From: a virus
DNA: 21,378 bases
Virus record (IMG/VR): IMGVR_UViG_3300036841_000062
Span: 1 to 21,378 of that record
Strand: one strand, 5' to 3'
Shown here: positions 1-21,378 of the stretch, piece by piece
Numbering within the stretch: position 1 is the stretch's first letter
How the letters are laid out: the number at the start of each line of letters is the position of its first letter
The notes under the pieces: model-generated
Databases searched by the model: none
Told to the model about the DNA's origin: nothing
Seen by the model: only the letters and a program-made list of their open reading frames with translations
Position numbers and translations under genes: made by a program

Positions 1-3000
1 AGAACGTTCGTCTTCGGAGCGTAGCGGTAAACAGTCCCGTCCAAGGTTACGAAGTCGGTAGGATCCGTGAACGGCTTCTCCGTGAAGGTGTCATAGCCGC
101 CCCTAGTCTCGATGAGTACCTTGACGAAAGGGTTGTTTGCCGGATCGATCAGCTTCGGGATCTTGATGCCGCCCATCTCCGTCACCTGAACGGCATCGAA
201 TGGGTTGAAGCTGCCAACCCGCATGAAGACTGTCTGCCCGTCCTGAGTGCCACCAATCGGGATGCTGTTCCGGTAGCGCGTCGGAAGGCGGTCGTCGTTC
301 GCCCCGTCGATCATCATCTTGGCATACTGGTTCCATAGGAACGCCGTCTTGGGGCGGATAAATGGAAGCTGGAAGAGAAGCTGATTCATCGTCCGGATGA
401 ATGTCCAGAAGGGGATGGCCCGGCGAATCCATTCCCGCTCCAGAGGGTGAAGTCTGCCGTAGTTCCCGAGGAATCGCTCCATCTCCTTGACCGCCGTTTC
501 CGCCTTCGCGGCCACCGGAGCAAGAGTCTGACGTCTGGCGGCGATATCTAGGAGCTTTTGGACGTCCTCTCCGATGCCTCCAGCGGAGCGGGTGTAGGGG
601 TACGCCCCAACCACGCTCTCTCGCTGCTTCGCCAGGGATTCCAATTGCGACTGGAGTTCTTCAAGTCGACTTCCACCACCAGAAGGGACAAGCTCCGCCT
701 GCTTGTGAAGGGTATGAATCTCGTCAGCCGAAGCGTTCTCCCCGATCTTGTCTAGGATCTTATTTTTCACGTCCTGAGCGTTCGACAGGCTGCGCTCTGT
801 GTTCATCTGCTGCTGGACGCGCTCCATGTCCATGTCGATCTGCGCAAGGCGCTTCTCTTCCTGAAGCCCGAGGCTGACCTTCTTCGCCTGGATGGCCTGC
901 TGGGAGGTAAGGCCCATCAACTCCTGACGCGCCTGGAAGGCGCTGCGGACCGCATCGTCCATCGTGCCCTGAGCGAGGAGCGCATTCGAGACGGCGTCCC
1001 CCATCTTCGCCTGACTGTCGATGGCCTCCCGGAGCTTGGTTTCCACGAGTAGGTGGCGCGGGATTTCATCAGACTTCCCAAGGAAATCGGTCAGCTTCGT
1101 GACAGCGCCGTGAGGTCCGAAGCCTGGGACGCGTGAGAGAAAGTCCGAGGCGTACCCTTGTTCAGAGAGGAGGCCGGATGCCGATAGAGCCTCCGCCGGT
1201 AGGATCTTGGAATCGGCAACCGTCTTCGACCAAGGGAGGTGCCCACCCGTCATCAGCAGGAGCGAGTTCCCGAGGAGGTTGTTCATGTAGTAGCGCGGCA
1301 TAAGCCGCAGGACCGAGCTACGCCAAGTGTTCAGGATCTTGTCGTAGAAGCGGAGCGGGCCGCTGACGCCACGGAGCTGACTCTCAATCAGGTAGGCGTC
1401 TTCCTTCGGAATCGCCACCCCCCAGTTCCTTGCGTCGTTCGCCGCCATGTGGGCTTCCTGGAGGAGCTTATCGCCCAAGGTTTCCTCGACGTGACTGAGC
1501 GAGTTTTTGATCGCATCAAGATTCGTCGATCCTTTCGCCATCTCGTCGGCCATCTTGGACATCATGGCCTCATGAGCCGGGATGAGGCCCTTTTCGATGT
1601 ACTTGGAGAGAACGGGGTCCATCCACACATGGCCCGCAGGGAGTTCTCCGCCAGCCTTGACGATCTTCCCTGAGTTCTGGATGGTGTCGGTGATGAAGTT
1701 CACCATCCCCCGAAGCTCCGCCGTCTGAACCGTTCTCCGCGCCTGGATCTCCTGCGGGTTCCGGATGATGCCCTCTCCGATCCCCTTCTTATTGAAGCGG
1801 GCCACGTTGCTCAAGTTCTGGCCGTCGTACTTGACCCCTTCCAGCATGTCTAGAAGGCCGTTAGCGCGGTCCGAAATGTACGGCATGTAGGAGGGCTTCG
1901 TCGCGGTACCCCAAGGGTTCGCGCCTTCCGCCCACGCCTTCGCAGCGTCTAGCCCTTCGCGGGTATAAGTAATCTTCCCTTTCTCGTCGAAGTAGACGTG
2001 GTCGGAAATCTTTCCGTCGGCGGCCAGCCGGTCCGCCAGAGGCTTTAGCGCGGCGTCATCAAGCTCCGCCTGGTTCTTGATGCCCATGTCCTTCATCCAC
2101 TCTTCGTTGTGGATGTTGTACTTCTGCCAGTTCTGGGCGTGTTCAGCGAGTTCAGGCTTGGAGGCCATCTCCATAGGCTTGTATCCCGTGGCAAGCTCCC
2201 AGTACTCGTCCCAGTCCTTCTTCGAGATGGACGCCTTCCAGAGGTCTTCGGACTTCTGGGCGGCCTGGACGCGCTCGTTTAGGAGGTAGGACGCCATCTT
2301 GTCCTTCCTCATGAGCCCGTACGGGGTGAGGGCAACCCCCTCCGCCGCGCTCTTGATGGCCGGGACCTTGAGGAGCGCCTTCCCAGTAGCCTCGAAAGGA
2401 AGGGCGAATAGCTTTCCGGGGGCCCGCTGGATGCTGTCCCCGTACCGGATCAGCTTCGTAGCGACGGACTCGCCAACCTCCGCGCCAGCACGAAGGGCAG
2501 CGCGTTCCGCTGCCGAGAGGGCGGCGGTCCCAGCCCCCTTCACGAAGCCGCCGACGCCATCCACGACGGTAAGGGCGTCCATCAGGACGCCGAAAGGATG
2601 CCTGTAGAGCGCCTCCCCTACCCCGTCCTTATAGGTGTCCGTGATGCCCTTGATAATGTCCGTGCCGGTCCGCTGAAGCTCCTTGGTCAGGAACTCCGGG
2701 TGTGCGTATAGATCCCGGACGCCGTCCAGATTCTTGGACAGCCACTTCCCGTTCTTCCAGGCAACCTGGATCATCGCCGGGATGCCCTCCACGAAGTGGC
2801 TCACGTCATCACCGAAGTTCTTGAGCCAGCCCTGAAAGGACTTGGTCGAGTCGGTAGGCGGATTCTCGAACGGTGCCGAAGGGGTATCCTTCGGGTTGAT
2901 CGGCATCATCCGCATCCTGTCAAGGGCCATGTCGCCCTGATCTGGAGCGAAAGACTGCATGGCCGGAAGGGATGCCTGCCCCATCTGGCCTAGAGGAGAG

Positions 3001-3101
3001 AGGGACGGCTTGTTAAAGGCTGGAGCCCCACTCTCGAAGCCGGTAACCGGCTGGATGGGCCTCTGAGGAGGAAGCGGACCCAACCCCTGATCCATCGGCA
3101 T
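1..3101 (-). CDS. Giant internal virion / DNA-ejection protein, C-terminal end outside window
   Basis: One frame stays open without a stop from the ATG at 3101 to the left edge, giving about 1,033 residues with the C-terminus missing. The first 90 residues are rich in Pro, Met and Gln. Near residues 170-200 lie Gly/Ala-rich hydrophobic segments (GVGGFVKGAGTAALSAAERA) that could enter membranes. Coiled-coil-like helices follow at about 735-830. Near residue 895 is the stretch WIRRAIPFWTFIRTMNQLLF, a type of motif seen in very large phage internal proteins. The gene starts 3 bases after the preceding stop, with GGGG six bases upstream. An alternative ATG lies two codons later. Position after two Gln-rich proteins and the nozzle matches P22 gp16, an ejected virion protein, but I see no sequence kinship to gp16. 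An embedded lytic or polymerase domain beyond the edge cannot be excluded. The reading frame is certain; the function is inferred from size, composition and place. Confidence 0.85.
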   Translation of the reverse strand, partial: MPMDQGLGPLPPQRPIQPVTGFESGAPAFNKPSLSPLGQMGQASLPAMQSFAPDQGDMALDRMRMMPINPKDTPSAPFENPPTDSTKSFQGWLKNFGDDVSHFVEGIPAMIQVAWKNGKWLSKNLDGVRDLYAHPEFLTKELQRTGTDIIKGITDTYKDGVGEALYRHPFGVLMDALTVVDGVGGFVKGAGTAALSAAERAALRAGAEVGESVATKLIRYGDSIQRAPGKLFALPFEATGKALLKVPAIKSAAEGVALTPYGLMRKDKMASYLLNERVQAAQKSEDLWKASISKKDWDEYWELATGYKPMEMASKPELAEHAQNWQKYNIHNEEWMKDMGIKNQAELDDAALKPLADRLAADGKISDHVYFDEKGKITYTREGLDAAKAWAEGANPWGTATKPSYMPYISDRANGLLDMLEGVKYDGQNLSNVARFNKKGIGEGIIRNPQEIQARRTVQTAELRGMVNFITDTIQNSGKIVKAGGELPAGHVWMDPVLSKYIEKGLIPAHEAMMSKMADEMAKGSTNLDAIKNSLSHVEETLGDKLLQEAHMAANDARNWGVAIPKEDAYLIESQLRGVSGPLRFYDKILNTWRSSVLRLMPRYYMNNLLGNSLLLMTGGHLPWSKTVADSKILPAEALSASGLLSEQGYASDFLSRVPGFGPHGAVTKLTDFLGKSDEIPRHLLVETKLREAIDSQAKMGDAVSNALLAQGTMDDAVRSAFQARQELMGLTSQQAIQAKKVSLGLQEEKRLAQIDMDMERVQQQMNTERSLSNAQDVKNKILDKIGENASADEIHTLHKQAELVPSGGGSRLEELQSQLESLAKQRESVVGAYPYTRSAGGIGEDVQKLLDIAARRQTLAPVAAKAETAVKEMERFLGNYGRLHPLEREWIRRAIPFWTFIRTMNQLLFQLPFIRPKTAFLWNQYAKMMIDGANDDRLPTRYRNSIPIGGTQDGQTVFMRVGSFNPFDAVQVTEMGGIKIPKLIDPANNPFVKVLIETRGGYDTFTEKPFTDPTDFVTLDGTVYRYAPKTNV

Positions 3102-3104
3102 GGG

Positions 3105-4406
3105 TTACCCCAGTCCTAGCATTCTGGCGACGTCAGGAGAGACTCCAACTTCGTTGTTTCCGGGCTCCCCGAGCTGCTTGTTGAAGTACTCGATGCGCTT
3201 CTGGAGCTGCTGCATCTGCTGCATCACTTCAGGCGGGGCTTTAAGCGGAGCTGGGTACTGCTGGCGGAGCGCGTTCAACTGCTGGAGAGCTGCGCCACGC
3301 CCAGACTTGAGACGCTGGAACTGGAACTCTTGGGCCTTGCTCTGATCGACACGCTGTTCTTTCTGCTGCTCCCTAGCCTGCTGACCCATGAGCATCTGAA
3401 GCTGCCGGTACTCCGACTCCCCGAGACGGCGCTGCTCCTGACGGTCCTTGATCTTCGCGCCCTCAAGCTGCATCACGTCGTTCAACGCACCCTGCTCGTT
3501 CCTCATCTTCTCGCCACGGCGGGAGATCATCTCCGCAGCCTGAAGCGGGTGGGCCCCGCCCAGCATGAGGAGGGCGTAGCCGAGGTAGTCGGTAATGCCG
3601 GGGGTCTTCCCGGATTCCGCTCTCGCGTCAGCGTACCGGCTCTTGGCCTCCTGAAGGACGCCTTCAAGATACGGGTCGTCCTTGAACTCCATGCGGAGGT
3701 AGTTGTCCGCCTTCTCCGGAGTGTTGACGCCGTTCTTGGCCGCCTCCTGAGCGTGACTCCTGACCAAGCCCTCGAAGTCGTTTTCAACTCCACGGACGAC
3801 TTCCCCGAAGCCCTGATGCTTCGCCATCTCAAGATCGGCCAGAGACCCGCCGCGTTCGGCATTTAGACGCGCAAGCAATCCCTGCTCCGCTTGCGGCATC
3901 GGCATCCCCTGGGCGCTCATACTGGGGCCAGGAGTCGCCTTGGAGAGGATCTCCGCCGCCGAAGGGCTAGGATCATCGGCCTGAGAGATGTCTCCGCCGA
4001 TCATCTTGTTCGCACCGCCAGCCAGCAACTTCAAGCCAGGTGCCACCGCATCGGACGCCTGCTGAAGCATCGCCTTGGAACCCTTCTGCATCCTAGGGCT
4101 AGGCATGAAGAACGGCATCGAGGTAGCCATCGGCGGCGTGTTAGCAGCCTCAGGATTCTGGGCCTGCTGCTGCACGTTCAGGAACGGAAGGAAAGGATGC
4201 TCGAAGGCCGGAGACTGCGCTGCCGCCGGAGGCGGACCAGAAGAAGGCGCTGGCCCGGTCGGAGGAAGGGTATTGTCCTTCCAAGGATAGTTCGGGTCGT
4301 TCGCCATCAATCTATTCAGGGCGGCCTGCTGATCGAACGGCGCTGCGGCAGGAGGCGGATTTTCGCCGCCGAAGAGCGCAAGGATATCCTTCAGATTGTA
4401 AGGCAT
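3105..4406 (-). CDS. Probable ejection/internal virion protein, Gln-rich
   Basis: This 433-residue protein is not recognised as a named family. Its first 100 residues are Pro/Ala-rich and probably disordered. A central helical part (about 165-330) includes a hydrophobic patch, YLGYALLMLGG, near residue 280. From about 320 to 410 it is strongly helical and Gln/Arg/Glu-rich, typical of coiled coils. The start is taken as the ATG in a TGATG overlap with the upstream stop; a GTG one codon earlier would make a GTGA overlap instead. It lies between a smaller Gln-rich protein and the giant left-edge protein, the order of gp7, gp20 and gp16 in P22, whose products are packaged and ejected with DNA. 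Length is close to that of P22 gp20 (about 470). I infer an ejection-protein role from order and composition only. A tail-assembly chaperone or other structural role is possible. Confidence 0.85.
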   Translation of the reverse strand: MPYNLKDILALFGGENPPPAAAPFDQQAALNRLMANDPNYPWKDNTLPPTGPAPSSGPPPAAAQSPAFEHPFLPFLNVQQQAQNPEAANTPPMATSMPFFMPSPRMQKGSKAMLQQASDAVAPGLKLLAGGANKMIGGDISQADDPSPSAAEILSKATPGPSMSAQGMPMPQAEQGLLARLNAERGGSLADLEMAKHQGFGEVVRGVENDFEGLVRSHAQEAAKNGVNTPEKADNYLRMEFKDDPYLEGVLQEAKSRYADARAESGKTPGITDYLGYALLMLGGAHPLQAAEMISRRGEKMRNEQGALNDVMQLEGAKIKDRQEQRRLGESEYRQLQMLMGQQAREQQKEQRVDQSKAQEFQFQRLKSGRGAALQQLNALRQQYPAPLKAPPEVMQQMQQLQKRIEYFNKQLGEPGNNEVGVSPDVARMLGLG

Positions 4407-4912
4407 CACTCACCACCATTCCCACCGAATTGACTCAGATATCCCGAGTCATAGCTTGTCCCGTCGCCCCAGCCTCCTGTCGTCTGCGGCCACATGCCGT
4501 AGGCCCCTGCGGCAGCTCCAAGAAGATGAAGACCCATGTTTCCGTAATAGGCCCCACGCTGCGCCCTAATGTGCTTCTTGATCATCGAGAGCTGTTTCTG
4601 GGCAAGCGTTTCCTGCTGTGCCGCCGCCTGCTGCTCGATGGCGTTTTCGTCCTTAACGCGGTTCACCGCCTGGACGCCGACGTTGTTCGCTTCTGACGGG
4701 TCGTAGACGCCACTGGAGTTCGCGGCCTCCTCCGCCTTCCGCTGGTTGAGGCGGGCGTTGAAGTCCGTCATCATGCGGTTCCTGACCGCCTGACTAAGCG
4801 CCATCTGCCCCTGAAGCTGCTGGAGCTGGCCCTGCTGACGGGCTACCCGATTGTCGAAGTAGCCGCCGACGAGACCGCCGAGACTTCCGCCAAGCCCGCT
4901 CAAATCAAGCAT
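4406..4912 (-). CDS. Probable small ejection/internal virion protein (P22 gp7 position)
   Basis: This 168-residue protein begins with a glycine-zipper-like hydrophobic segment (LSGLGGSLGGLVGGYF, about residues 4-19). A long Gln/Ala-rich helical region follows (about 22-115), then a second small-residue hydrophobic stretch, GLHLLGAAAGAYGMW, near 127-141, and a Gly-rich tail. Hydrophobic glycine-rich segments beside long helices are typical of phage proteins that leave the capsid and associate with membranes during DNA entry. The ATG lies two bases after the nozzle stop codon, and the gene's own stop overlaps the next start as TGATG, so it is translated within the same operon. Assignment as an ejection protein rests on gene order and composition, not on a recognised domain. 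Confidence 0.85.
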   Translation of the reverse strand: MLDLSGLGGSLGGLVGGYFDNRVARQQGQLQQLQGQMALSQAVRNRMMTDFNARLNQRKAEEAANSSGVYDPSEANNVGVQAVNRVKDENAIEQQAAAQQETLAQKQLSMIKKHIRAQRGAYYGNMGLHLLGAAAGAYGMWPQTTGGWGDGTSYDSGYLSQFGGNGGE

Positions 4913-4914
4913 GT

Positions 4915-6792
4915 CTAGGCACTCCTCTGAGTTCCAGGCTCATGAGCCTTTGCCGTCACCTTCAGTCCGTAAACGATGGTCTGGCCGTTGGTCGAGTTGT
5001 CCCGAAGACGGACCCGATGGAAGGTCGCCCTATTGCCTAGGAAGTTCTTCAGCTTCTTAATGGGACCCTCCGAAGACACCGCCATTGTATCCGAGTAGGA
5101 AGTAACTGTCCCGTCGGCATAGTGCGTTGCGGTCAAGGTGCTGGATGTCCCTGTATCCGCATGGAGGTAAGCCCACCGGAGGGTTGCCGGACACCATCGC
5201 TCGTCAAAGGTCATGTCCGGAGTTTCGTAGATGAAGTCGATGGCCGAGCCGTCGTCGTTGTTTCCGTTCTCCGCCTCCCAGACCAAGATGGAGGTACCGG
5301 AGGTACCGAAGAGCATTCGCCCGTCAGGATGGTTGGCGTAAACCCTGGGGGTCTTCCCGGTGTTCATCGTCCACGAAGACCGCTCGACGTCCACCACAAG
5401 TTCCCGGTTGTTAGCCGAGCTTGTCGGGTAGCCGAAGTAGAGCTTGGTCTGGTACCGCCCGATTGCGATGGACGACTTGGAGGAGATGGCAAGATACGTC
5501 TGCTGGATGGGCTCCGAGAGCTTGTACGGGTAGCGGCCCTGGATGCCGTAGATTCCACGATTCGTCGCCACGACGACGAAGTTGTCATAGGCCAGCATCG
5601 CCTCATGGCTGACCGCGCCGACGTTCAGGATCTTCCGGGCGCTCCAGTCGAACGGAGACGAGCCGAAGAGGATGTAGAGATTCCCCTCCTTGCCACCGGA
5701 CGCCGGGGAAATCTTCGAGAAGATGGCGAAGTCGACGCCGCTGCACATGCCGTTCAGGACCATGCCGTCGTTCTTGCTGAAGGTCAAGGACCCGGCATTG
5801 TCGGAGGTCGTATAGTCTTCCTCGTTCAGGAGCGCGGAATGGGTGGCTACGCTGTTCGCGCCCGTGCCGAGGAAGACGCGGTTCCGGTGAACCATCCCGA
5901 ACTGGGCTTTAGACGGCGGCGATCCGCCGAGAGAGGAGGAGGAAACCCCGTCCGTCGTATAGAACGGGCCGCCGCCCTCGTTCAGGATGATGATCTTGTC
6001 GTTCGACATGAACATCCGGACCATCTTGTCTACCGTGATGGTCAGCCCGGTAATCGGCGTATTCCAAGTGCCGTCCGAGATGTCCTGTACGGTGGACCCT
6101 TCGGCGGCCAGGGTGTACGGGACGCCGAAGAGGGAGCCGGACGAAAGGACGGGATTCGTACCGTAGGTTCCCGTCACCCGAGCGCGGACGTAGTAGAGCG
6201 TGACGCTGTTCAGGCTGACCGTGGCCCAGTCCGAGGGGATGGTCCAATAGACCTTGTAGGTAGTCGAGCCAGCGGACGCCGTGAAGCCGGTCGTTCCATC
6301 CGTCACTCCAGAAAGCGCCGTCCAAGCGGACCCGTTCCAGTACTCCCAAGCCACGGTTCCGCCAACGCCAGCGGTCGAAATGATGATCGTCAGGCCGCTG
6401 TACTTGACCCGGCAGCCGATGGCGAAGTAATCCCCGACTGCCTCGACAGCGGGAAACGGGTCTACGTCGCCAGCGGCGGAGCTATTGAAGTCCGTCGTCT
6501 CATCAACGAAGGTCAATGGGCTGGCATCCACCTGCCACGCCTTAATGGCCCCGCCAGCGGCGGACGTCCCGGAGAACAGGCCGCTGACAAATGTTCCCGT
6601 CGGGCTGACCTTTGCCGAGCCCGTGAACTTGATATGCCCAAGACGCTTCTTGACTCCGCCGTTGTAGGTCGGGTCCGTGTTCTGGAGCGTCGGGGACTGG
6701 TTCTTCTTGAGCACATGAGCGGGCCTCTGGGTATAGAGGCCGCCGTCCGGCTCGAGAACCTCGTACGTCTTGAGTTCCTTTTCCAAGCCCAT
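4915..6792 (-). CDS. Tail nozzle / DNA-stabilisation protein, beta-propeller (P22 gp10-like position)
   Basis: This 625-residue beta-rich protein contains repeated strand-turn units such as HRNRVFLGTG, YDNFVVVATNRGIYGIQG and GRYQTKLYFGYP between about residues 290 and 500. The pattern fits the propeller of podoviral nozzle proteins. An insertion at about 149-208 carries the signature WEYWNGSAWTAL and ends YYVRARVTG, a beta-sandwich module that recurs in phage and surface proteins. The conserved-looking N-terminus ends with a VKKRLGHIKF segment, typical of this neck region, where proteins start by mapping onto the adaptor ring. The start ATG overlaps the adaptor stop as TGATG. It would sit below the adaptor, close the DNA channel and carry the tail fibres. 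The family call is from architecture and gene order; a tail tubular B type name would describe the same role. Confidence 0.85.
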   Translation of the reverse strand: MGLEKELKTYEVLEPDGGLYTQRPAHVLKKNQSPTLQNTDPTYNGGVKKRLGHIKFTGSAKVSPTGTFVSGLFSGTSAAGGAIKAWQVDASPLTFVDETTDFNSSAAGDVDPFPAVEAVGDYFAIGCRVKYSGLTIIISTAGVGGTVAWEYWNGSAWTALSGVTDGTTGFTASAGSTTYKVYWTIPSDWATVSLNSVTLYYVRARVTGTYGTNPVLSSGSLFGVPYTLAAEGSTVQDISDGTWNTPITGLTITVDKMVRMFMSNDKIIILNEGGGPFYTTDGVSSSSLGGSPPSKAQFGMVHRNRVFLGTGANSVATHSALLNEEDYTTSDNAGSLTFSKNDGMVLNGMCSGVDFAIFSKISPASGGKEGNLYILFGSSPFDWSARKILNVGAVSHEAMLAYDNFVVVATNRGIYGIQGRYPYKLSEPIQQTYLAISSKSSIAIGRYQTKLYFGYPTSSANNRELVVDVERSSWTMNTGKTPRVYANHPDGRMLFGTSGTSILVWEAENGNNDDGSAIDFIYETPDMTFDERWCPATLRWAYLHADTGTSSTLTATHYADGTVTSYSDTMAVSSEGPIKKLKNFLGNRATFHRVRLRDNSTNGQTIVYGLKVTAKAHEPGTQRSA

Positions 6793-7646
6793 CAGGAGTA
6801 CGGCGTCGAAACCTTTCGGTTCCGGACGTCCCTCACCTGCCTGCGGATCTCCCTTTTCGCAACGACCTTCTCCGCCTGATAGATCTGAAGGGCAGTGGCT
6901 GCGGCCTCTTCATTCCCGGACTGCTTGTGCGCCAAGTAGAGAGCGTAGTTCACGATCATCCGATGGAAGCGGCTGGAGAACTCCGGCGTGTCCGAATCGG
7001 CGGACATATACTTGTGGGAGTAGGCGTAGGTCATCACAAGGTCGCAGCGGTACACCGTGTCGCAGGAGTTGTGAATGGCCGCGGTCGTCCCCCCCTGACC
7101 ACGAAGGCAGAGGGTCAGGTTATTGGTCGTCGTGTTGTTGTACTGGTAGGCAATCTGTTCGGACCCTACGAGGACGATCCCGGCATTCTGGTAGAAGTCA
7201 GAACTGGACGTGAAGGCCAAGCTTGTGGAACTGCTGGTAACCCCCGAAAGTAGGATCTTCGTGTTCCCGCTCGACGATGGAGCCGGGCCTAGATAGATGT
7301 CGTTGTCGATGATGGTGTATCGCTCAGGGATCGAACGAGGGGCCCGCTTCCACAGGTACCCCTCCTGCTTGAACTCCTGCGGGGAGAGGTAGTCAATCGG
7401 CGTCCCAACGCCGTTCTGGTACCACATCATGGCGCGGGAGTGGACGTAGTCGCTGGGCAGGTCGTACCGGAACTGATAAGCCGTGACGTAGTAGCCGAAC
7501 TCCCGGAAGCAAGGCTGCGCATCGCTCTGGAAGTCATCGCAAGCCATGTTGATGTAGAGGTTCGCGGGAGTGGCGGAAAGGAACCCGCCGTTCTTATCCT
7601 GGAACCTCGTCTGGAGGTCCGCTCTCAGCGCGGAGAGAGTCGCCAT
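6792..7646 (-). CDS. Head-to-tail adaptor / neck protein with inserted beta domain
   Basis: This 284-residue protein lies just upstream of the nozzle gene. Its N-terminal helices (1-60) and C-terminal helices (about 222-265, including FHRMIVNYALYLAHKQ) fit the helical ring adaptor that docks under a portal. Between about residues 121 and 202 is a Ser/Thr-rich beta insertion ending LCLRGQGGTTAAIHN, a motif seen in inserted domains of phage neck proteins. I start it at the ATG in a TAATG overlap with the upstream stop, because GGGGAGAAGG lies directly upstream. The possible start seven codons earlier falls inside that ribosome-binding site. The role is inferred from position and helical ends; P22 gp4 has the same position but is shorter. 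Confidence 0.85.
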   Translation of the reverse strand: MATLSALRADLQTRFQDKNGGFLSATPANLYINMACDDFQSDAQPCFREFGYYVTAYQFRYDLPSDYVHSRAMMWYQNGVGTPIDYLSPQEFKQEGYLWKRAPRSIPERYTIIDNDIYLGPAPSSSGNTKILLSGVTSSSTSLAFTSSSDFYQNAGIVLVGSEQIAYQYNNTTTNNLTLCLRGQGGTTAAIHNSCDTVYRCDLVMTYAYSHKYMSADSDTPEFSSRFHRMIVNYALYLAHKQSGNEEAAATALQIYQAEKVVAKREIRRQVRDVRNRKVSTPYS

Positions 7647-7981
7647 TAAACCTTCTCCCCTCTCCACCCTTTGACGGTGGCTTCGGGATGCTTCTCTATC
7701 TCATGGACGGCATCGGTAAGCGCCTTGAAGGCCACTTCCCCGCCGCCGTAGACGAACTGGAAGGCGTATTTCACGATCATGTGGAACTGCTTCCCGAGGC
7801 GGTAATACTGGTCCGTGTCGAGGGCGACGAGGGCGATCCGCTGGCCGTCCTCCTGCTTCCCACGGGCGATGTCCTTCAGGGCGTGACGGTAGGAGGCCAG
7901 GACCGCGTCGGCGGCGTTGCACTTGGAGCACTCGGGATTCCCGACGTTCCTGTCCTTGGCCTTCTCTAGATCAAGTCCCAT
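7646..7981 (-). CDS. Hypothetical phage protein with CxxC pair
   Basis: This 111-residue protein is not recognised. A CSKC pair stands at residues 18-21 with no clear second pair, so a zinc site would need a partner or dimer. The middle is alternating helix and strand, with FHMIVKYAFQFVYGGG near 66-81, and the C-terminus is charged. It starts three bases after the stop of the second Rossmann-like gene and its stop overlaps the adaptor start, so it is coupled to neck protein synthesis. It could be a small head-completion protein by position, or a companion of the two Rossmann-like proteins. Neither is shown by motif. Confidence 0.75.
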   Translation of the reverse strand: MGLDLEKAKDRNVGNPECSKCNAADAVLASYRHALKDIARGKQEDGQRIALVALDTDQYYRLGKQFHMIVKYAFQFVYGGGEVAFKALTDAVHEIEKHPEATVKGWRGEKV

Positions 7982-7984
7982 TCT

Positions 7985-8749
7985 CTAGTTCCTGACGATC
8001 AACTGTTTTTTCTTCGGAAGCCCACCCGTCGCCCACAAGTGCTTGTAGAAGGCGTCGAGAGAGTCGAACTCCTGCGGGATGGTCGTCTTCGGAAGGTCCA
8101 GCTCTCCCCATTCCGTTCCGGTATGGGAGGCGTCCGCCAGCATGACCTTGGGGTGCATCCACACGGCCCGGTTCTTCAGGGCCTCCGCGATTCGGGCGAA
8201 GGTGAAGACGTAGATGCTCCGCCAGTTCTTCGTCACCTTGCCGTTCTTCTGGATGTCTTCCGCCTCTTTGATCTTGAGGTACTCCTCATTCATCCTGTTC
8301 TCGCAGCCGACGAAGACGATCCGAAAGGCCCCGAGGTGCCAAGCCAGCGAGGACGCCCCGACGGCGGAAACCCCGTTCCACGCCAGCTTCCCGGCCTGGA
8401 CGTCCTTGAAGAAGGCTTCCCGAACCTCCGGCCCCTTCTTATCCGGGTCCCCGGCCCGCTCCCAGATGTACGTTTCCGAGTCGTAGTGATCCTTGAACAA
8501 GTCAACCCCGCATCGAATCGCCGCCTTCGCGTTCGGATGGTCCTTGGAAGTCTCGTAGGCGTCAAGGTCCATCCAGAACCAGTAGTCTGCGGGAACGCGC
8601 TCGATAGCCCGGTTGATGGCGATGGTGAAGGCTCTAGGGTGTCTTTCCTTCAGGTGCTTCTCCGCGTTGGCGATAGATTCGCCCATGCCGACGACGAAGC
8701 AAAGCTCGCCGTTTCTGGAGTCGAAGATTTCCCGGATGTCTTTAGGCAA
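7985..8749 (-). CDS. Rossmann-like protein of DUF115/GT42 sialyltransferase type, copy 2
   Basis: This 254-residue protein shares its layout with the gene just upstream. It has a glycine-rich loop GMGES at 21-25, AINRAI at 44-49, a DYW-x3-DLD segment at 55-63 and DHPNA at 70-74. Further on comes NGVSAVGASSLAWHLGAFRI near 125-144, before GCEN. These correspond to GxGxS, the conserved Asn, and the small-residue helix before the second strand in DUF115 (MptE-like) and Campylobacter CstII-type GT42 proteins. In copy 1 the last element reads GHDY, so copy 2 may have lost or changed an active-site feature. The start is a TTG, chosen because GGAGG lies six bases upstream and no ATG precedes the conserved core. 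It overlaps the previous gene by 8 bases. A transferase acting on a nucleotide-activated sugar is plausible but unproven. Confidence 0.8.
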   Translation of the reverse strand: MPKDIREIFDSRNGELCFVVGMGESIANAEKHLKERHPRAFTIAINRAIERVPADYWFWMDLDAYETSKDHPNAKAAIRCGVDLFKDHYDSETYIWERAGDPDKKGPEVREAFFKDVQAGKLAWNGVSAVGASSLAWHLGAFRIVFVGCENRMNEEYLKIKEAEDIQKNGKVTKNWRSIYVFTFARIAEALKNRAVWMHPKVMLADASHTGTEWGELDLPKTTIPQEFDSLDAFYKHLWATGGLPKKKQLIVRN

Positions 8750-9524
8750 GAGCCGCCTCCAAGTTCACTTTCGGAAGAGGAAGGAACCCGCCGGGGGTCG
8801 CGTCCACGATCTCTACGGGGCGCTCAAGCCACTGAGGCTTCTCCGCTTCGGAGAACATCTCCAGAAGCCTCTCCATGACCCCGAAGTGCTGTCCGAGCTG
8901 CCAGACCTTGTCCCGTCCCGCCTGGACGTAGTCGTCGAAATGGCCGTTCCCAGGGTAGTCGTGACCGTAGAGGACGATCTTCTTCGCCCCCATGCGGATG
9001 GCCAGATGGATGGCCCACCCTGTGGTAGACTCCGCCCAGTAGAAAGGCCGCAGCGCCGGATCTCTCCAGCGGTTCGGCTCCCCGTTCACTTCGACCAAGT
9101 AGGCGGGTCGGTCCTTGAGCCAGCTATAAAGCTGGATGCAGCACACCCAAGGGACGCCCTCCGCGTTCGGATGGTCCATGTTCTGGGCCAGCGTATCCAC
9201 GTCGTGAAGGCACCAGTAGTCAGGCTTGAGGTGCCTGACGGCCCGATTCACCGCCAGCGTGACGACGCCTTCGGGGATCGTCTTCAGGTAGGAAAGGCTC
9301 TTGCCGGAGCCGAGAATAAGGACCGTCTTCCCTTCGGCTGCGCCACGGAGATCGTTCGCGTTCTTCCAGGGCTGGGTGGGATTCCGCCGCATCACCGCCT
9401 TCCAAGTGTCCACACGCACCTGATTGGTCCAGACGTCCTCTTCCCACGACTCGCCAAGCGCAGTCCGAGGCATCGCCTTGATGCGCGGGTCGTTCAGCTT
9501 GCCCTTGGTGGTGATGTAGAGCAT
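8742..9524 (-). CDS. Rossmann-like protein of DUF115/GT42 sialyltransferase type, copy 1
   Basis: This 260-residue protein has a helical N-terminal extension of about 65 residues. The core follows: VLILGSGKSL (68-77), AVNRAV (91-96), PDYWCLHDVD (101-110) and DHPNA (117-121). TTGWAIHLAIRMGAKKIVLY at 167-186 precedes GHDY. The C-terminal VEIVDATPGG near 237-246 resembles the closing strand and loop of the same fold. In CstII-type GT42 sialyltransferases the matching elements are GNGPSL, an Asn-containing strand, and an SGVYMC...ALGYKEIYLSGIDFY-type segment; DUF115 proteins share this plan. I therefore call it sialyltransferase-like, without claiming CMP-sugar activity. It is the first gene after the capsid genes and starts six bases after a strong stem-loop. 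An MptE-like diphosphokinase role is an alternative but makes little sense in a virion operon. Confidence 0.85.
   Translation of the reverse strand: MLYITTKGKLNDPRIKAMPRTALGESWEEDVWTNQVRVDTWKAVMRRNPTQPWKNANDLRGAAEGKTVLILGSGKSLSYLKTIPEGVVTLAVNRAVRHLKPDYWCLHDVDTLAQNMDHPNAEGVPWVCCIQLYSWLKDRPAYLVEVNGEPNRWRDPALRPFYWAESTTGWAIHLAIRMGAKKIVLYGHDYPGNGHFDDYVQAGRDKVWQLGQHFGVMERLLEMFSEAEKPQWLERPVEIVDATPGGFLPLPKVNLEAALA
8756..8760 (-). promoter_or_regulatory. Ribosome-binding site deciding a TTG start
   Basis: The minus strand reads GGAGG six bases before the TTG at 8749. This supports TTG as the start of Rossmann-like copy 2, inside the end of copy 1. Confidence 0.65.
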
Positions 9525-10151: not shown

Positions 10152-11099
10152 TTAGGGCTTGAGAACCGAGAAGGAAGCCACCGTCCGGCGGTTCCGGAAG
10201 ATGAAGTTACCCGCGAAGAACTTCTGCCAGATGCGAATCCACTGGTTGGCGGGACGCGGGACACGTTCCACCTTGAAGTTCACATCCTTGTGCACGATCA
10301 TGTTCATGTGACGGCTATTGAGCCACCACAGATAGTTCGTGGCAGAGCCCGCCCCCGAGCCCGGCGAGTGCGAGTCGTGGAAGATGGGGATGTCGTTGAG
10401 AAGGATGTACTTGAAGCCGCCACGAGCCGTCTGCTCACCGCCGAACCGCTGGTTCGCCTGGAGCAGGGCCCAGACCTTCTTGTACACCGCCTTGTTCGTC
10501 ACGCCCATGTCCGGACCGTCCGAGGCCACGGTGGCATTCAGGATGCCGCCCTCGAGCGTAGACAGGGCAATCGTCGAGGTGGTCGTGTTCACCTGCGCGA
10601 TCCAGTTGGAGAAGTCCGCAACCGGGATCGAGTGCAGCGTGGTAGACGCCGAAGCGACGTTGCGAAGCCCCGTCACGCCGGTAGCCGAATCGGCGTTCGT
10701 CGAGAAGAGGTCGGTGGAAATCTGGTCCGCCATCTTCAGGTCGCCGTTCTTCGTCTTGGTCTGGATCAGGTCCACGACCGCCTCGTCACCGCTGTTCCGG
10801 AGGATGTCATGCTCCGTCAGGACGATGGAGACGTAGTAGAGCTTCCAGTCCAACTGGACCGCCGTGTCGGTGTCCGTCGGGCTGTAGTTCAGGAGGTCCG
10901 CTCCCTGGAACGAGCCAGCCGACGCGATCTTCTGGTAGATGATGGAAGACTGGATCTTCGATCCGCCCTGATAGGTGATCTGACCCGTCTCCCGCATGTG
11001 GTAGAAGAGCGAGGCGGAATCGTAGACGTTGTCTTCCGACCCGCTCTCCAGAATGTTGAGGGTCGTTGCCTCAACCTGACTGGTAAACGGAAGAGCCAT
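10152..11099 (-). CDS. Major capsid protein, probable HK97 fold
   Basis: This 315-residue protein has the usual coat-protein length and place, after the scaffold gene and before a decoration protein. It begins LPFTSQVEATTLNILESGS. Features typical of coat proteins are the TYQGGSKIQSSIIYQKI segment near 42-58 (E-loop region), LYYVSIVLTEHDILRNSG near 87-104 leading into a spine helix with EAVVDLIQTK, and a C-terminal part ending in a beta strand (FIFRNRRTVASFSVL). The mid-region YILLNDIPIFHDSH near 231-244, followed by WWLNSRHMNMIVHKDVNFK, is common in capsids that refer to a bound partner region. AGGAAA precedes the ATG. No N-terminal delta domain or protease is evident, matching use of a separate scaffold. 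Confidence 0.9.
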   Translation of the reverse strand: MALPFTSQVEATTLNILESGSEDNVYDSASLFYHMRETGQITYQGGSKIQSSIIYQKIASAGSFQGADLLNYSPTDTDTAVQLDWKLYYVSIVLTEHDILRNSGDEAVVDLIQTKTKNGDLKMADQISTDLFSTNADSATGVTGLRNVASASTTLHSIPVADFSNWIAQVNTTTSTIALSTLEGGILNATVASDGPDMGVTNKAVYKKVWALLQANQRFGGEQTARGGFKYILLNDIPIFHDSHSPGSGAGSATNYLWWLNSRHMNMIVHKDVNFKVERVPRPANQWIRIWQKFFAGNFIFRNRRTVASFSVLKP

Positions 11100-11115: not shown

Positions 11116-11937
11116 CTACTTCTTGTTCGCATTAGCGCGGAAGACCTTCTGGGCCCAATCGCGCTCCTGCGCTGGCGTTGCATGACGGGGACGTTCCGGG
11201 AGTCCGGTAGGCTTGGCCCCGGCAGTCGGCGCTTGAGACCCAAGGAAGGCGGACTTGCCGCCGTTCTTGATCTCCTCTTCCTTCTGCTTCTGGCCCATCT
11301 CCAGCCACCTGGCGGACAGGGTCGGAACGACCGCTTCGGAGTAAGCCAGCGCAAGCTGACGATTCGGAGGAAGGTTGCCGCACCAGCTCTCGTTCTCCTT
11401 GAGCCAGCCTTCGATGGCACCCCATTCCTTCTCAGTCAGTTCCTTGTGCGACTTTGCGAAGTCGTCGATTGCCGCGCCCTGTTCGCGTTCCCGCTCTCTG
11501 CCCTCAAGAAAGCCGATGCGCTGCATGACCTCCGGAGGAAGATTCTGCTCGGCGGCCTGCTGAATGGCCTGCTGGGGCGGCATCCCGGCTTTGATGGCCT
11601 GAACGACCTGATCCCGGAGGGCCGGATTGCGGTTGATGGCGGCGACGACCGATTCGTACTGTCCGATCTTATTCGCCGTATCCCGATCCCTCTGGGCGCG
11701 TTCCTGGTTCTTCCGGGTAACTTCCGCTTCCCACTTCTTGGCCGCTTCGTGGAATTTGTTCGGATCGGTGTAGGTGTTCCCGCCGAAGTCGAACTTCCAC
11801 TGCTGACCCGCCGTGGCGGAAGTGTTCTCACTTCCGACCGTTTCCGAGGTCTGAGACTGGGAGGTGACTTCGGAGGCCGCTTGCTCAGTTCCCTGAGCCT
11901 CGACCGCCGCTTGGTCGCTCATGGTCTCGTCTGGCAT
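11116..11937 (-). CDS. Scaffolding protein
   Basis: This 273-residue protein is acidic and helix-rich and lies 16 bases before the major capsid gene, the usual place of a scaffold. The first 45 residues are Gln, Ser, Thr and Glu-rich and probably disordered. WKFDFGGNTYTDPNKFHEAA near 47-66 is a short ordered module common in phage scaffolds. A long charged helical middle follows (about 70-230), and the tail ends basic (RANANKK), as expected for a coat-binding helix. I choose the ATG at 11937, preceded by AAAGGGA. The frame extends 32 codons further upstream, but that part crosses an inverted repeat and has unlike composition. It is probably present in the procapsid and removed on maturation. 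The call is by position and composition. Confidence 0.85.
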   Translation of the reverse strand: MPDETMSDQAAVEAQGTEQAASEVTSQSQTSETVGSENTSATAGQQWKFDFGGNTYTDPNKFHEAAKKWEAEVTRKNQERAQRDRDTANKIGQYESVVAAINRNPALRDQVVQAIKAGMPPQQAIQQAAEQNLPPEVMQRIGFLEGREREREQGAAIDDFAKSHKELTEKEWGAIEGWLKENESWCGNLPPNRQLALAYSEAVVPTLSARWLEMGQKQKEEEIKNGGKSAFLGSQAPTAGAKPTGLPERPRHATPAQERDWAQKVFRANANKK

Positions 11938-11972
11938 CGAGTTCCCTTTCGAGCTTTTGCATGACGCCTTTT

Positions 11973-12327: not shown

Positions 12328-13191
12328 CTACGCGCTAACCGTCTGAGCGTCCGTCCCAACCGTCGGCTTATCCGTGTCGTACTCGGCGGACGCCTCCCCG
12401 GCGCTGCGGCGTACGCGACGTTTCCGGAGCTGCTCCACAAGGCTCTCGTCGTTGCGCTGCTGCTCGTTGTACTGGTCCATCGCGTCCTTCTGGGCTTGGA
12501 ACGCCTCGTCGGACTGATCCTGAGACCTCTTCCCGGCGGCGTAGCCACCGACACCGCCAAGGACGGCTCCGATAGGGCCCCCGGTCACGAATCCAAGGAG
12601 GGCCCCGGCACCTGCCGCATACGCAGCCTTGTTCCGATCTAGGCTTCCTTTCAGTCCTCCAGCGTACCGGTGGGCGTCCGTGTTCTTGACGTACATGTCC
12701 TCGCCGGTCAGGTTGTTGTGGATCGTGTCCCAGTAGTTCTGGGACTTCATGTCGATGCCGCTGATACCGGCGTCTCCGAGCTTCTTGAGCTGCTCAGGGT
12801 CCGTAACTCTGTACTCTGAGTACAGATTGTTCATGATCGAGTCTTTGTACGCATCACCGAACATCTGGTTTCTGAGTTCCTCTGCCCGCTGGGCGTTGTT
12901 CGTTTTCCAAAAGCCCCTACCAGTGTCTTGCTTCAACTGAGGAACGCCCTGAGTATTCCCAAACCTAGTGACAGCGGGTTTGAAAAGGCTCTTATATTCT
13001 TTAGCGGCAGCGCCAACGCCATAACCAACGCCGCCGACGCCAAAACCGCCCTTCAATGAAGATGCATAGCTGTCAGCGTTGAAGTCGCCGCCACTCAACT
13101 TCTTGTATGCGCTCATCTGGTCAGCAAGGGACATGCCCTTGTTCTGATCAAGGTACTGCCGCGCATAGTAGGACGCTAGATCCTTGCCCAT
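12328..13191 (-). CDS. Glycine-zipper hypothetical protein between portal and scaffold
   Basis: This 287-residue protein is not a recognised family. The N-terminal 45 residues are helical, followed by a Gly-rich segment (GGFGVGGVGYGVGAAA near 48-63). A strong glycine zipper lies at about 189-220, with alternating Gly/Ala and hydrophobic residues (AGALLGFVTGGPIGAVLGGV). The C-terminus is a charged helix rich in Gln, Asp and Arg (about 224-265). Such zippers pack helices in membranes, so it may be an internal virion protein that joins the ejection set, even though it lies near the portal. Part of the gene (about 12.83-13.08 kb) looks more AT-rich than its neighbours. GGGGG precedes the ATG by seven bases. 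Confidence 0.85.
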   Translation of the reverse strand: MGKDLASYYARQYLDQNKGMSLADQMSAYKKLSGGDFNADSYASSLKGGFGVGGVGYGVGAAAKEYKSLFKPAVTRFGNTQGVPQLKQDTGRGFWKTNNAQRAEELRNQMFGDAYKDSIMNNLYSEYRVTDPEQLKKLGDAGISGIDMKSQNYWDTIHNNLTGEDMYVKNTDAHRYAGGLKGSLDRNKAAYAAGAGALLGFVTGGPIGAVLGGVGGYAAGKRSQDQSDEAFQAQKDAMDQYNEQQRNDESLVEQLRKRRVRRSAGEASAEYDTDKPTVGTDAQTVSA

Positions 13192-13457: not shown

Positions 13458-15368
13458 CTAGGCCGCATTTTGACGCCCAAGATTAATCTGGTCCGGCATC
13501 ATGGCGATGTCCTGCGGAGTGGGCCCCTGCTGTGCGCCCATCATCGCTTGCTGCTGCATCATCATCCGCTGCTGCTCCATCTCCCCGGCGATCTCCTCCC
13601 AGCGGTCCCAGCCAGCAGCACGGAGGAGTTCACGGAGCGGAAGCGCGCCACGGTCGAACAGCGTGATGGCCTGCTGGAACTTCGCGGTACGGGAGACCGG
13701 CAGCGTAGAACCGGCCCCGATCCTAACATCGAACTCCGCATCCGGAGGAATCATGTTCGATGTCTGGTCGTAGACGTTCTGTTGCTGCGGCATCCCGTCT
13801 TCTCCGATGACCGGGAATCCGCTATCGTCCGTCACCGTCTCCGTTCCAACGGGCTTATTGATGACGAAGCTATTCTGCATCACTTGTGCAGCCGGGACCG
13901 GAGAGCCGTCCGCGCCGAACTCGCTGCCGACGATTCGGAAGATGCGCATGGACGTGTAGTGCTTCTGGATGAACTGGATGAGGATTTTGCCGCAGCGTCG
14001 CAGGGCTGCCTCCATCAGGCGGACCTTGAGGCGAAGGCGGGTATTCGCCGCATCGCCTAGAGTTTCAAGAGCGATGCCCGCCTCGACGCCTACAGGCCGT
14101 TTACCCTGGATAATGTCCACGTTCCCGAGGATGTCGTTGATGTCCTGCTTGTCGCGGTCGTTCACGCCGAAAAGGCCCGTCAGGTCCATATGCGGGACCA
14201 GCCAGTTAGCGGCCTGTGGGCCGCCCTCCGCCGGGATCGAGATGCCCGGCTCCATCTGAAGGTCTTCGAGGTCCGCACCCGCGCCAGGGTCATAGATGAA
14301 CACCGGGGAGGAGCAGAAGCGGAGGATATCGAGGATCATGCCTCGGCGCTTGTTGATTTCGTACTGAAGGTTTTCGACGAGGGCAATTTCTCCGGTTCCC
14401 CAGATGGACCAATGCGTCTTGTAGTCCGGGAAGTGGACAAAGGGGGCCATGTCGAAGTCGGTAATGTCCGGACCTTCAAGCAGCACGTCGTTTGCAACAA
14501 CCGTGCGCTCCCAGCGTTTGGTTTCCCTGTCGAAACGCCAGCGTTCCCCGACCGTCGCGGAGGTCTTGCTATTCTGAGGAGCTTCCCGCTGTAGAGTGTC
14601 GCCCCCGTAGAGCCAGGTATCAGAACCAGTTGTTGTGGTAACCGCGTGACTGCCGCCCTTCCCGACGCCCTTCTGGGCGACCTGTGGACGGTAGATGACG
14701 ACGTCATTGTCCTTCACCTTGGCAGTCACTTCCGCGCCCTTCTCGGGCCACAGGACTGCGATGCGATCGAGCCCGATCTGCTCGACGTGCCAAATCTCCG
14801 TCGCGTCGTCGATGTCCTTCGCTTCGGGGTTGAAGAACATGCACGTCGGGTCGACGTCGACGATCTGGATATCTCCAGTCCCCTTCCTGAGCGCAGGGTT
14901 CCAGAGGATCTTCCAGAAGCCGTTCCCGAAGACGAGAGAGTTCAGGATGGTTGCCGGAAGCTTGACGTCGCAGTTGTTCTCCTCCCAGAGCCATTCCACA
15001 ATGGCCCGGAGAACGTCGGCAATGCGCTCGTCTTCCGGGTTTCTTGGAACGATGGCGATCTGTGGGCGGTTGTCCGTGATGACGGGAAGGATGGAGTTGA
15101 CGGCTGCGGTAGATAGCGGAATGGTCGGGGTACTCTGCCAGGGCTTCTGGTTGCCGTTCCAATGCTGGCAGTAGTAGATTTCCGCGTACCGCTTCTGATC
15201 GACGGGGTTGACGATGGCGTACTTGTGCTGCTTCGACTTCCGCCAGTCTCCCCAGAACTTCTCGACAAGCTCCGTTTCGTCTGGGCGTGCGGCAGTAGAG
15301 GAAGTCTGAGAGAGCGGCGGAGCGCCCTTCTCTTCGTACAGCGTCGGCTGAGTAACTACTTCAGGCAT
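13458..15368 (-). CDS. Portal protein
   Basis: This 636-residue protein follows the large terminase by two small genes, the place of a portal. It has the long mixed-fold body of podoviral portals: an N-terminal charged lead (WGDWRKSKQHKYAIVNPVDQ near 40-59), TPTIPLSTAAVNSILPVITD near 80-99, and LVFGNGFWKILWNP near 143-156 as a portal signature. The clip/stem part around INKRRGMILDILRFCSSPVF near 340-359 is helical. The C-terminal helix is rich in Met and Gln (QQRMMMQQQAMMG), like a barrel or crown. As a dodecamer it would form the DNA entry ring and bind terminase and the adaptor. AAGGAG lies seven bases before the ATG. Large portals of this size fit P22-like podoviruses. Confidence 0.9.
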   Translation of the reverse strand: MPEVVTQPTLYEEKGAPPLSQTSSTAARPDETELVEKFWGDWRKSKQHKYAIVNPVDQKRYAEIYYCQHWNGNQKPWQSTPTIPLSTAAVNSILPVITDNRPQIAIVPRNPEDERIADVLRAIVEWLWEENNCDVKLPATILNSLVFGNGFWKILWNPALRKGTGDIQIVDVDPTCMFFNPEAKDIDDATEIWHVEQIGLDRIAVLWPEKGAEVTAKVKDNDVVIYRPQVAQKGVGKGGSHAVTTTTGSDTWLYGGDTLQREAPQNSKTSATVGERWRFDRETKRWERTVVANDVLLEGPDITDFDMAPFVHFPDYKTHWSIWGTGEIALVENLQYEINKRRGMILDILRFCSSPVFIYDPGAGADLEDLQMEPGISIPAEGGPQAANWLVPHMDLTGLFGVNDRDKQDINDILGNVDIIQGKRPVGVEAGIALETLGDAANTRLRLKVRLMEAALRRCGKILIQFIQKHYTSMRIFRIVGSEFGADGSPVPAAQVMQNSFVINKPVGTETVTDDSGFPVIGEDGMPQQQNVYDQTSNMIPPDAEFDVRIGAGSTLPVSRTAKFQQAITLFDRGALPLRELLRAAGWDRWEEIAGEMEQQRMMMQQQAMMGAQQGPTPQDIAMMPDQINLGRQNAA

Positions 15369-15834: not shown

Positions 15835-16023
15835 TTACCCCTTCTTTAGAAGTTCCACTGGGACGTTGTTCCCGACGCTGACGGCCCCTACGGCGGACTT
15901 GGCGACGACAGCGATCAACTTCCCGTTGTTATCCGTGTAGTGATCGACCACGTAGGCCAGCCTGCCGTTCCAGAGGACGCGGCCTTCGGTCTTGAGCAGC
16001 TCCATGAACTCCTGTTCTGTCAT
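15835..16023 (-). CDS. Small hypothetical protein after the terminase
   Basis: This 62-residue protein has a short acidic helix (TEQEFMELLKTEG) followed by beta strands (GRLAYVVDHYTDNNGKLIAVV), suggesting a small SH3-like barrel. I start it at the ATG in an ATGA overlap with the terminase stop; a TTG three codons earlier is less likely. No family is recognised. Confidence 0.7.
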   Translation of the reverse strand: MTEQEFMELLKTEGRVLWNGRLAYVVDHYTDNNGKLIAVVAKSAVGAVSVGNNVPVELLKKG

Positions 16024-19853: not shown

Positions 19854-20179
19854 CACCGCTTCGGCCCCCGCTTGAGCTTCTTGGGCTCCGCCGGAACTTC
19901 AGCGATGATCCTCCGCGCCTCGGCCAGCTTGTCGTCATGGGTGGCGACAAACTCCTCCGCGTCCTTCCGCTTCTCCTTCATCTCGAGCTGCTCGATAAGC
20001 CTGGGAAGGTTATGGATGATCTTGCATGGAGGTACCTTCGGCTCTACCGGACGTTCGCAGGTGAACCAGACCTCAGCGTCGATGACGGTCCTTCCGGTAT
20101 ACCCGCAGTCGCACGCAAAGGCGTAAGCGCCTGGAATCAGGTTCTTCTGCTTGTCTTTGGCGCGGTCGATGACGGCCAT
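19853..20179 (-). CDS. Hypothetical protein with CxCG zinc-ribbon-like core
   Basis: This 108-residue protein has C23, C25, C41 and C52 in FACDCGYTGRTVIDAEVWFTC followed by C52. Its spacing nearly matches the core of the 200-residue protein two genes downstream, so the two are probably homologous. The second half is a charged helix ending in a basic tail (KKLKRGPKR). It overlaps the stop of the NeuB-like gene as TAATG. The role is unknown; single-strand or RNA binding would be consistent with the ribbon and basic tail. Confidence 0.8.
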   Translation of the reverse strand: MAVIDRAKDKQKNLIPGAYAFACDCGYTGRTVIDAEVWFTCERPVEPKVPPCKIIHNLPRLIEQLEMKEKRKDAEEFVATHDDKLAEARRIIAEVPAEPKKLKRGPKR

Positions 20180-21024: not shown

Positions 21025-21378
21025 GTCTTCGGCTCCGCTGCAATGGCGACGAGGCAACCGGGCCGATTCTGAAAAGTGACCTGAGCGAAGAAGCGTTCGA
21101 GTAGCTTCCGAAGCTCCTTCTCCTGGTACTCATGCAGGTGCCATCGATTGTCCGGATTCCTTCCGTCGTCCCGCTTCGCTTGCGGGGTCGTGATGAAGAG
21201 AACCCCTTCCGGACTGAGCCATCCGGCAAGCTCTTGAAGGAGGACGGGGGCGAGATGTTCTGGGATGTGCTCGAGAGCTTCGATGATCGTGATGAAGCCG
21301 ACTCGCTTGTTGAACTGATTGGTGTCGAAATCCGGAGACAGGAGGTACTCCGTTCCCGCCCTAGAATGGAGGAGGCGG
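21021..21378 (-). CDS. Class I SAM-dependent methyltransferase, N-terminus outside window
   Basis: The visible 118 residues are the C-terminal part of a Methyltransf_11/23-type enzyme. They contain the typical IIEALEHIPEHL segment, then LSPEGVLFITTP, and the late RWHLHEYQEKELRKLL ending in a hydrophobic strand. The SAM-binding GxG motif lies beyond the right edge. It overlaps the NeuB-like gene by four bases and was probably translated in the same unit. Such enzymes often modify sugars or lipid carriers in surface-glycan clusters, so methylation of a glycan or its precursor is possible. A DNA or small-molecule role is not excluded. Confidence 0.82.
   Translation of the reverse strand, partial: RLLHSRAGTEYLLSPDFDTNQFNKRVGFITIIEALEHIPEHLAPVLLQELAGWLSPEGVLFITTPQAKRDDGRNPDNRWHLHEYQEKELRKLLERFFAQVTFQNRPGCLVAIAAEPKT

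Follow-up and report, generated by a model that had tools for sequence, protein, structure and literature searches.

The ejection (internal virion) proteins of short-tailed phages form a trio encoded in the same gene order, with sizes of 181-240, 431-982, and 609-1,337 residues as given in the excerpts of one review (PMC8954989), where the largest, gp16-type proteins span from 609 residues in P22 to 1,337 in phiKMV. The same excerpts describe gp15-like proteins as matched mostly by size and synteny, and the gp16-like proteins of P22 and epsilon15 as showing little similarity to that of T7 despite their matching synteny, which implies that sequence similarity is not a strict requirement for a gp16-type protein. 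Here we analyze a stretch of viral DNA (hereafter, the window) that comprises the entire 21,378 bp of IMG/VR record IMGVR_UViG_3300036841_000062, the record having nothing to the left of position 1. Its left end (3-3101, minus strand) is occupied by one giant open reading frame, whose product is very probably the gp16-position ejection protein of a short-tailed phage, the third and largest of its trio; by extrapolation from other phages, the protein would leave the virion at infection.

The left-edge frame and its gene neighborhood

The frame runs without a stop through 1,033 codons, from an ATG at position 3101 to position 3, and is open at the left edge. A stop-free frame of this length has a chance of ~1e-15 given the base composition, and each of the five remaining frames of 1-3101 is interrupted by 15-45 stops. 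An earlier note on this DNA, which had read a single open frame over more than 1,030 codons, is thus borne out on that point, and the edge is open as it stated; the orientation is another matter, since reading starts from an ATG at 3101 on the minus strand and the part missing at the edge is the C terminus. Searches of viral contigs recovered three complete relatives, at L002:8692-12216 (1,175 residues), L012:7496-10852 (1,119 residues), and L013:9992-13489 (1,166 residues), where the L numbers are our labels for contigs. Their identities to the window protein over aligned residues are 58%, 49%, and 36%, respectively. The DNA differences between the window and L002 number 326, 254, and 539 at the first, second, and third codon positions, and the codon changes comprise 272 synonymous and 428 nonsynonymous ones. 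The peak of differences at the third position, together with the 58% protein identity, shows that the frame codes for a protein.

In the alignment, the frames of L002, L012, and L013 extend 122, 121, and 124 residues beyond the last residue of the window protein and then stop; a full length of ~1,155 residues is expected for the window protein, with ~120 lost at the contig edge. That this exceeds the 609 residues of P22 gp16, as pointed out before, is true, but P22 stands at the low end of the range reviewed in PMC8954989, as excerpted, and the length is an ordinary one. The window trio, at 168, 434, and ~1,155 residues, compares well with those ranges, except that the small protein falls slightly below its own. 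The further suggestion that a lytic, polymerase, or DNA-handling domain may follow past the edge is not supported: the relatives end 121-124 residues on, on which grounds an extra domain there was rejected, and family searches recovered no enzyme domain in any of the four proteins. Specifically, the N-terminal lytic transglycosylase domain of T7-type gp16 was absent from all four members in a domain search, no match to a polymerase family was seen in the window protein or its relatives, and the domain search of full-length proteins, run on the three complete relatives, recognized nothing.

The window protein likewise has no significant match in PHROGs, Pfam, NCBIfam, PDB, or the phage collection, on the basis of which membership in a known family was rejected, and two scans of a genome-contig collection returned no relative. 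As judged from these searches, its kind is known but its sequence family is new. What places it is its context. The minus-strand order of the window is terminase, portal, scaffold candidate, capsid, several genes, adaptor, nozzle-position protein, and then three genes for proteins of 168 residues, 434 residues, and the large protein. The portal (13458-15368, minus strand) belongs to the P22_portal family (E 3e-36), and the head-tail adaptor (6792-7667, minus strand) to the SU10_adaptor family (E 5.7e-15). The 625-residue nozzle-position protein (4915-6792, minus strand) is so labeled from its position and from the matches of its L013 relative to phrog_3287 and phrog_8040, "head closure Hc3" (E 7.9e-6), which is the annotated name of P22 gp10. 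Behind it lie the putative small (4406-4912, minus strand) and medium (3105-4409, minus strand) ejection proteins, both assigned by position and both devoid of cysteine, the medium one having no family match. By position and reading of translations, the series adaptor, nozzle, small, medium, large is seen in all four phages (the window, L002, L012, and L013), and in each the three-gene cluster behind the tail nozzle ends with the large protein, its biggest product. The next gene in each of the three relatives encodes a long protein (776, 855, or 1,010 residues) that looks fiber-like in translation, although family searches of the three gave a weak virion-structural match for the second (855 residues) only.

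Cysteine content and the identity of the large protein

Of the tests applied, the cysteine count was the most informative. Cysteine is absent from the window trio (1,635 residues) and from its nine counterparts in the relatives (5,297 residues), giving 12 cysteine-free proteins and 6,932 residues for the four phages. The 14 other window proteins contain 57 cysteines in 4,568 residues, and the relatives' other listed head and tail proteins, 22 in number, contain 66 in 7,828, with a single one of these 22 being cysteine-free. Given the window's own rate, 1,033 residues would be free of cysteine with a chance of ~2e-6. A comparable split is seen in a control drawn from T7, P22, N4, phiKMV, P-SSP7, SP6, and epsilon15, in which the division into ejection and other proteins is our own assignment (that of N4 gp51 and gp52 and epsilon15 gp14-17 being partly by position): 22 ejection proteins have 7 cysteines in 17,623 residues (0.40 per 1,000; 16 cysteine-free), and 73 other listed late proteins have 226 in 28,920 (7.8 per 1,000; 13 cysteine-free). 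The largest of those 13 has 568 residues. Among control proteins of at least 600 residues, 11 of 14 ejection proteins are cysteine-free as against none of the 12 others, all of which have at least two cysteines. The gp16-type proteins of T7, P22, phiKMV, P-SSP7, and SP6 lack the residue altogether and epsilon15 gp17 has one; for T7, P-SSP7, and epsilon15 gp14, the sole cysteine is residue 2.

In the literature, the lack of cysteine has been remarked upon for the ejected N4-like RNA polymerase, with disulfides said to hinder passage through the tail (excerpts of PMC3915230), and an N4-like virion RNA polymerase without cysteine is also stated in the excerpts of PMC4837373. Among the literature matches listed, with subscription papers outside the scope, we saw no general cysteine rule for ejection proteins, the remark being made for N4-like virion RNA polymerases only. 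Such a composition suits a protein obliged to unfold, pass through an oxidizing space, and refold. Taken together, the gene order in four phages, the P22-type portal, the SU10-type adaptor, and the absence of cysteine argue for an ejection protein in the gp16 position, and so uphold the earlier note's proposal of a last ejection protein.

Several observations weigh against this assignment. Neither sequence nor profile similarity to a known gp16-type protein was detected with PHROGs, Pfam, NCBIfam, PDB, or hhalign, and profile comparison with gp14, gp15, and gp16 of model phages found nothing. The small gene has a T7 gp14 match in one relative only, L013, where it is weak (Pfam E 0.0082, below the curated cut-off; phrog_418 E 0.0013) and unconfirmed by profile comparison, and the nozzle-position protein of the window itself matches phrog_511, "internal virion protein" (E 1e-5). 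Nor is the absence of cysteine exclusive: the window's capsid protein and the protein encoded at 12328-13191 also have none, epsilon15 gp15, gp16, and gp17 are exceptions with 2, 1, and 1, and the genes at the trio's place in Stenotrophomonas phage BUCT555 have 1, 0, 0, and 3. The annotation "internal virion protein" is also borne by three small control proteins (T7 gp13, epsilon15 gp13, and P-SSP7_032, with 3, 2, and 4 cysteines), which were counted among the others; moving them changes the tally to 16 cysteines in 18,063 residues (0.89 per 1,000) for ejection proteins versus 217 in 28,480 (7.6 per 1,000) for the rest. The window protein has no 19-residue segment with a hydropathy of 1.6 or more, and the AlphaFold models of the L002 protein (predicted local distance difference test score, 36) and of the C-terminal module (47) are too poor to use.

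The hydropathy result bears on the membrane-like Gly/Ala stretches reported earlier. One Gly/Ala-rich stretch does exist, at residues ~181-211 (2469-2561, minus strand; 16 of 30 residues), but it is below the hydrophobicity of a classical membrane helix. The best 19-residue value in the whole protein, 1.42, is reached by 72% of 300 shuffled copies, leaving a transmembrane protein unsupported. The relatives are also below 1.6, as are T7 gp16 (1.44) and P22 gp16 (1.18), so that hydropathy speaks neither for nor against a gp16-type protein. The coiled-coil helices of the same account are plausible and weakly supported: a poorly conserved, length-variable stretch before the C-terminal module (approximately 528-1088, minus strand) may be helical and possibly coiled-coil, given long helices at residues 687-852 of the L002 model, at very low confidence, and alpha-actinin matches at E 0.16 or worse.

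The lack of a membrane segment and of a known ejection homolog would also be expected of a scaffold-like or core structural protein within the head, one that aids assembly and is not ejected, and some scaffold and capsid proteins are cysteine-free as well. We regard such a role as improbable because the gene sits behind the nozzle within the trio, a separate scaffold candidate (11116-11946) adjoins the capsid gene, and cysteine-free late proteins of 600 residues or more were confined to the ejection class in our sets of model-phage proteins. Still less probable is a long tail-associated or fiber-attachment protein on the outside of the virion: the fiber-like gene directly behind it in all three relatives would suit such a protein, whereas the mainly helical prediction (of very low confidence) and the complete absence of cysteine, versus 3, 1, and 11 in the fiber-like neighbors, would not. 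We give hardly any credence to the notion that the window shows merely the N-terminal part of a multidomain giant, such as an N4-like virion RNA polymerase. The open edge invites it, as does the presence of a related C-terminal module in proteins of 1,100-2,300 residues; yet the frame ends 121-124 residues beyond the edge in all three complete close relatives, and the conserved motif described below, of whose distance to the C terminus the window already includes 141 residues, stands 205-300 residues from the end in the relatives and in five further matches with complete ends.

If the frame does encode the gp16-position ejection protein, its action is best pictured by analogy with T7 and P22 (PMC8954989, in excerpt), from which head packaging, ejection, order of exit, and contacts with membrane and DNA are all borrowed. 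Copies of the trio would be packed in the head near the portal; at adsorption, the nozzle would open, and the trio would exit before the DNA and extend the tail across the envelope. The large protein would be threaded unfolded through the narrow channel and then refold, whereupon its C-terminal module might act at the cytoplasmic membrane, holding or passing the entering DNA.

The C-terminal module and its reach

The best conserved part of the large protein is a C-terminal module extending from residue ~858 to the edge (3-530, minus strand), which resembles the C-terminal parts of other large phage proteins. At its core is the motif RRAIPFWTF (residues 893-901; 399-425, minus strand), a segment noticed before and confirmed here. 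A degenerate DNA pattern for RRx(I/V)PFWTF picked out 11 stretches in the viral-contig collection, of which two are chance matches in frames of 13 and 49 residues. The remaining nine lie in frames of 454-1,397 residues, several of them cut by the end of the stretch, and have like surroundings; four were previously known (the contigs of L002, L012, L013, and L016), and the other five show surroundings such as HFDYS...RRxIPFWTFMSRN.PLQ. In all eight long frames with a complete end, the motif is 205-300 residues from the C terminus; for the window protein, the end of which is cut, the full distance is predicted. With nine of the 11 matches lying in long frames, RRAIPFWTF is a real signature.

A profile built from 11 C-terminal modules, for which the best reversed decoy scored E 4.2, matched four proteins of named phages outside its input: MW202803 (E 2.8e-26), MW202795 (E 7.5e-13), Cellulosimicrobium phage DS1 (E 2.6e-11), and Microbacterium phage Shocker gp37 (E 2.7e-9). 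Each of the four is cysteine-free and is the third of three listed cysteine-free genes, genes under ~130 residues being left out of these runs; in Shocker, two lysis genes after gp37 are also cysteine-free. At each phage's own rate, the chance of no cysteine is 4.5e-5, 2.3e-6, 5.7e-4, and 1.6e-3 for MW202803, MW202795, DS1, and Shocker, respectively, the last two being the weaker cases. The records of MW202803 and MW202795 are titled Podoviridae; literature searches listed nothing on the virion shape of Shocker and DS1. The MW202803 protein (L017, 13499-17437; 1,312 residues) bears the database name "chromosome segregation", which is probably misleading in view of the module it carries. Searches of the model phages were negative: the profile had no match at E up to 10 in T7 and P22, and in N4, epsilon15, phiKMV, P-SSP7, and SP6 nothing was better than E 2.5 (best in N4, 2.7).

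Whether the window family and the other members share the module by descent depends greatly on the motif. Built from the other members only, a profile detected the four window-type proteins with E values between 8e-7 and 2.6e-5; conversely, a window-type profile recovered all seven others (E 3.9e-5 to 0.0098), with MW202795 scoring 0.017 and MW202803 just 2.6. Once the nine motif residues were masked, cross matches at E < 5 disappeared in both directions; what was left was a collinear hhalign alignment with E 0.0033 and a probability of 9.6%. Since new members were chosen by the motif pattern or by peptide patterns holding the motif, agreement at the motif is not independent evidence. The four proteins of named phages (L017-L020) were reached through L015 and L016 and not through the motif pattern, and the MW202803 protein does not even fit the motif expression used. 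Independent support for the link comes from the capsid protein of MW202803, which is related to that of the window (E 2e-8). Common descent of the module in the window family and the other members is likely, though unproven, and the motif tentatively connects the family to large phage proteins of 1,100-2,300 residues, some of them from phages of actinobacteria.

A wider reading may be entertained, which we consider rather doubtful as a whole. In it, the RRxIPF(W/Y)(T/S)(F/W) module would define a superfamily of cysteine-free last ejection proteins of ~1,100-2,300 residues across very different hosts, including actinobacteria such as those infected by Shocker and DS1, which have no outer membrane. 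The module's site of action would be the cytoplasmic membrane or the incoming DNA rather than a periplasmic tunnel, and exclusion of cysteine would be a general mark of proteins threaded through the tail. The giants of Microbacterium phages Burro and ArMaWen would then be ejected too. The excerpts of PMC7302621 report proteins of more than 4,400 residues in Microbacterium podophages, with their role being unclear, and a large (~250 kDa) virion protein whose presumed source is Burro gp27. Burro gp27 has no cysteine in 4,491 residues and ArMaWen gp31 none in 4,483, although the rate in 16 further listed late proteins of each phage predicts 10.9 and 15.2, respectively; together with six module proteins (1,104-2,261 residues), they make up 18,283 residues without one. 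Neither giant matches the module profile at E up to 10, so that the absence of cysteine is all that ties them to the window family, and their ejection is offered as a proposal from composition.

With these findings, the part of the podophage infection apparatus that is conserved least gains a family not described before. The C-terminal motif and the absence of cysteine provide two simple handles for ejection proteins where homology fails. If the module link is true, it opens to study how podophages whose hosts have a single membrane move their DNA across it, and it proposes a role for the Microbacterium giants, that role being called unclear in excerpts of PMC7302621. The interest of the locus resides in a family without a match in the searched libraries, a module that possibly joins it to phages of actinobacteria, and cysteine absence as a marker, and not in the extra domain that had been hoped for.

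Neighboring genes and comparison with known systems

Elsewhere in the window, the terminase large subunit is encoded at 16020-18095 (minus strand) and the major capsid protein at 10152-11099 (minus strand). The terminase has an N-terminal HNH/NinG-like stretch at residues ~32-85 (NinG, E 0.0012; HNH phrog_1271, E 3.7e-5). In the nozzle-position protein, ~140 residues in the region of 83-225 form an insertion missing from its L002 relative, which is otherwise 66% identical. Between capsid and adaptor are two adjacent, overlapping genes (7985-8749 and 8742-9524, minus strand) for proteins of 254 and 260 residues that look alike by eye, with GMGES/GSGKS-like and DYW-D-like stretches; the pair is also present in L002, L012, and L013 and is perhaps a duplication. 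Between portal and scaffold candidate, 12328-13191 (minus strand) encodes a Gly-zipper-like protein of 287 residues without cysteine, which has the window's only hydrophobic peak well above shuffles (KD19 1.57, reached by 1% of them) and a similar-looking small counterpart at a like place in L013 (1268-1735); it is possibly a further ejected or membrane-active protein. At the right end, 20179-21057 and 21021-21377 (minus strand) encode a NeuB-like synthase and a methyltransferase, both named from translations, as were NeuA-like, aminotransferase, and epimerase genes that the relatives also have (L012 15583-18085, L013 19484-23297, and L034 10684-13133). These translations suggest sugar-acid (nonulosonate-type) biosynthesis on phage genomes.

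Turning to described phages, the podophages MW202489, Bradyrhizobium phage ppBjS10J-1, and BUCT555 have capsid proteins related to that of the window. The first two have three cysteine-free genes in a row, the third gene encoding only 717 and 481 residues, respectively, whereas only two neighboring genes are cysteine-free in BUCT555; the window-family profile had no match in these three or in one further viral contig. Shocker gp37 (1,743 residues) and the DS1 protein (1,783 residues) are, like the window protein, last of three cysteine-free genes, and their modules carry the motif in the form IPFYSW or MPFYSW. They differ in being longer and in that similarity is confined to the module, with the link resting mainly on the motif. 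The N4 virion RNA polymerase (3,500 residues) is ejected and shares the absence of cysteine; it differs in belonging to a polymerase family unmatched in the window family and in giving no convincing module match. P22 gp16 has 609 residues, about half the length, and no detectable sequence relation, and in P22 the trio gp7, gp20, and gp16 lies behind gp10 with genes 26 and 14 in between; it is nonetheless, like the window protein, a cysteine-free product of the third trio gene behind the portal, coat, adaptor, and nozzle genes. T7 gp16 (internal virion protein D) has no sequence or profile match to the window protein and has a lytic transglycosylase domain not found in the window family. In T7, gp14 (196 residues), gp15 (747 residues), and gp16 (1,318 residues) are followed by the tail fiber, and the window family occupies the same position; like the window protein, T7 gp16 is the last and largest of the three, is cysteine-free, and is of similar length.

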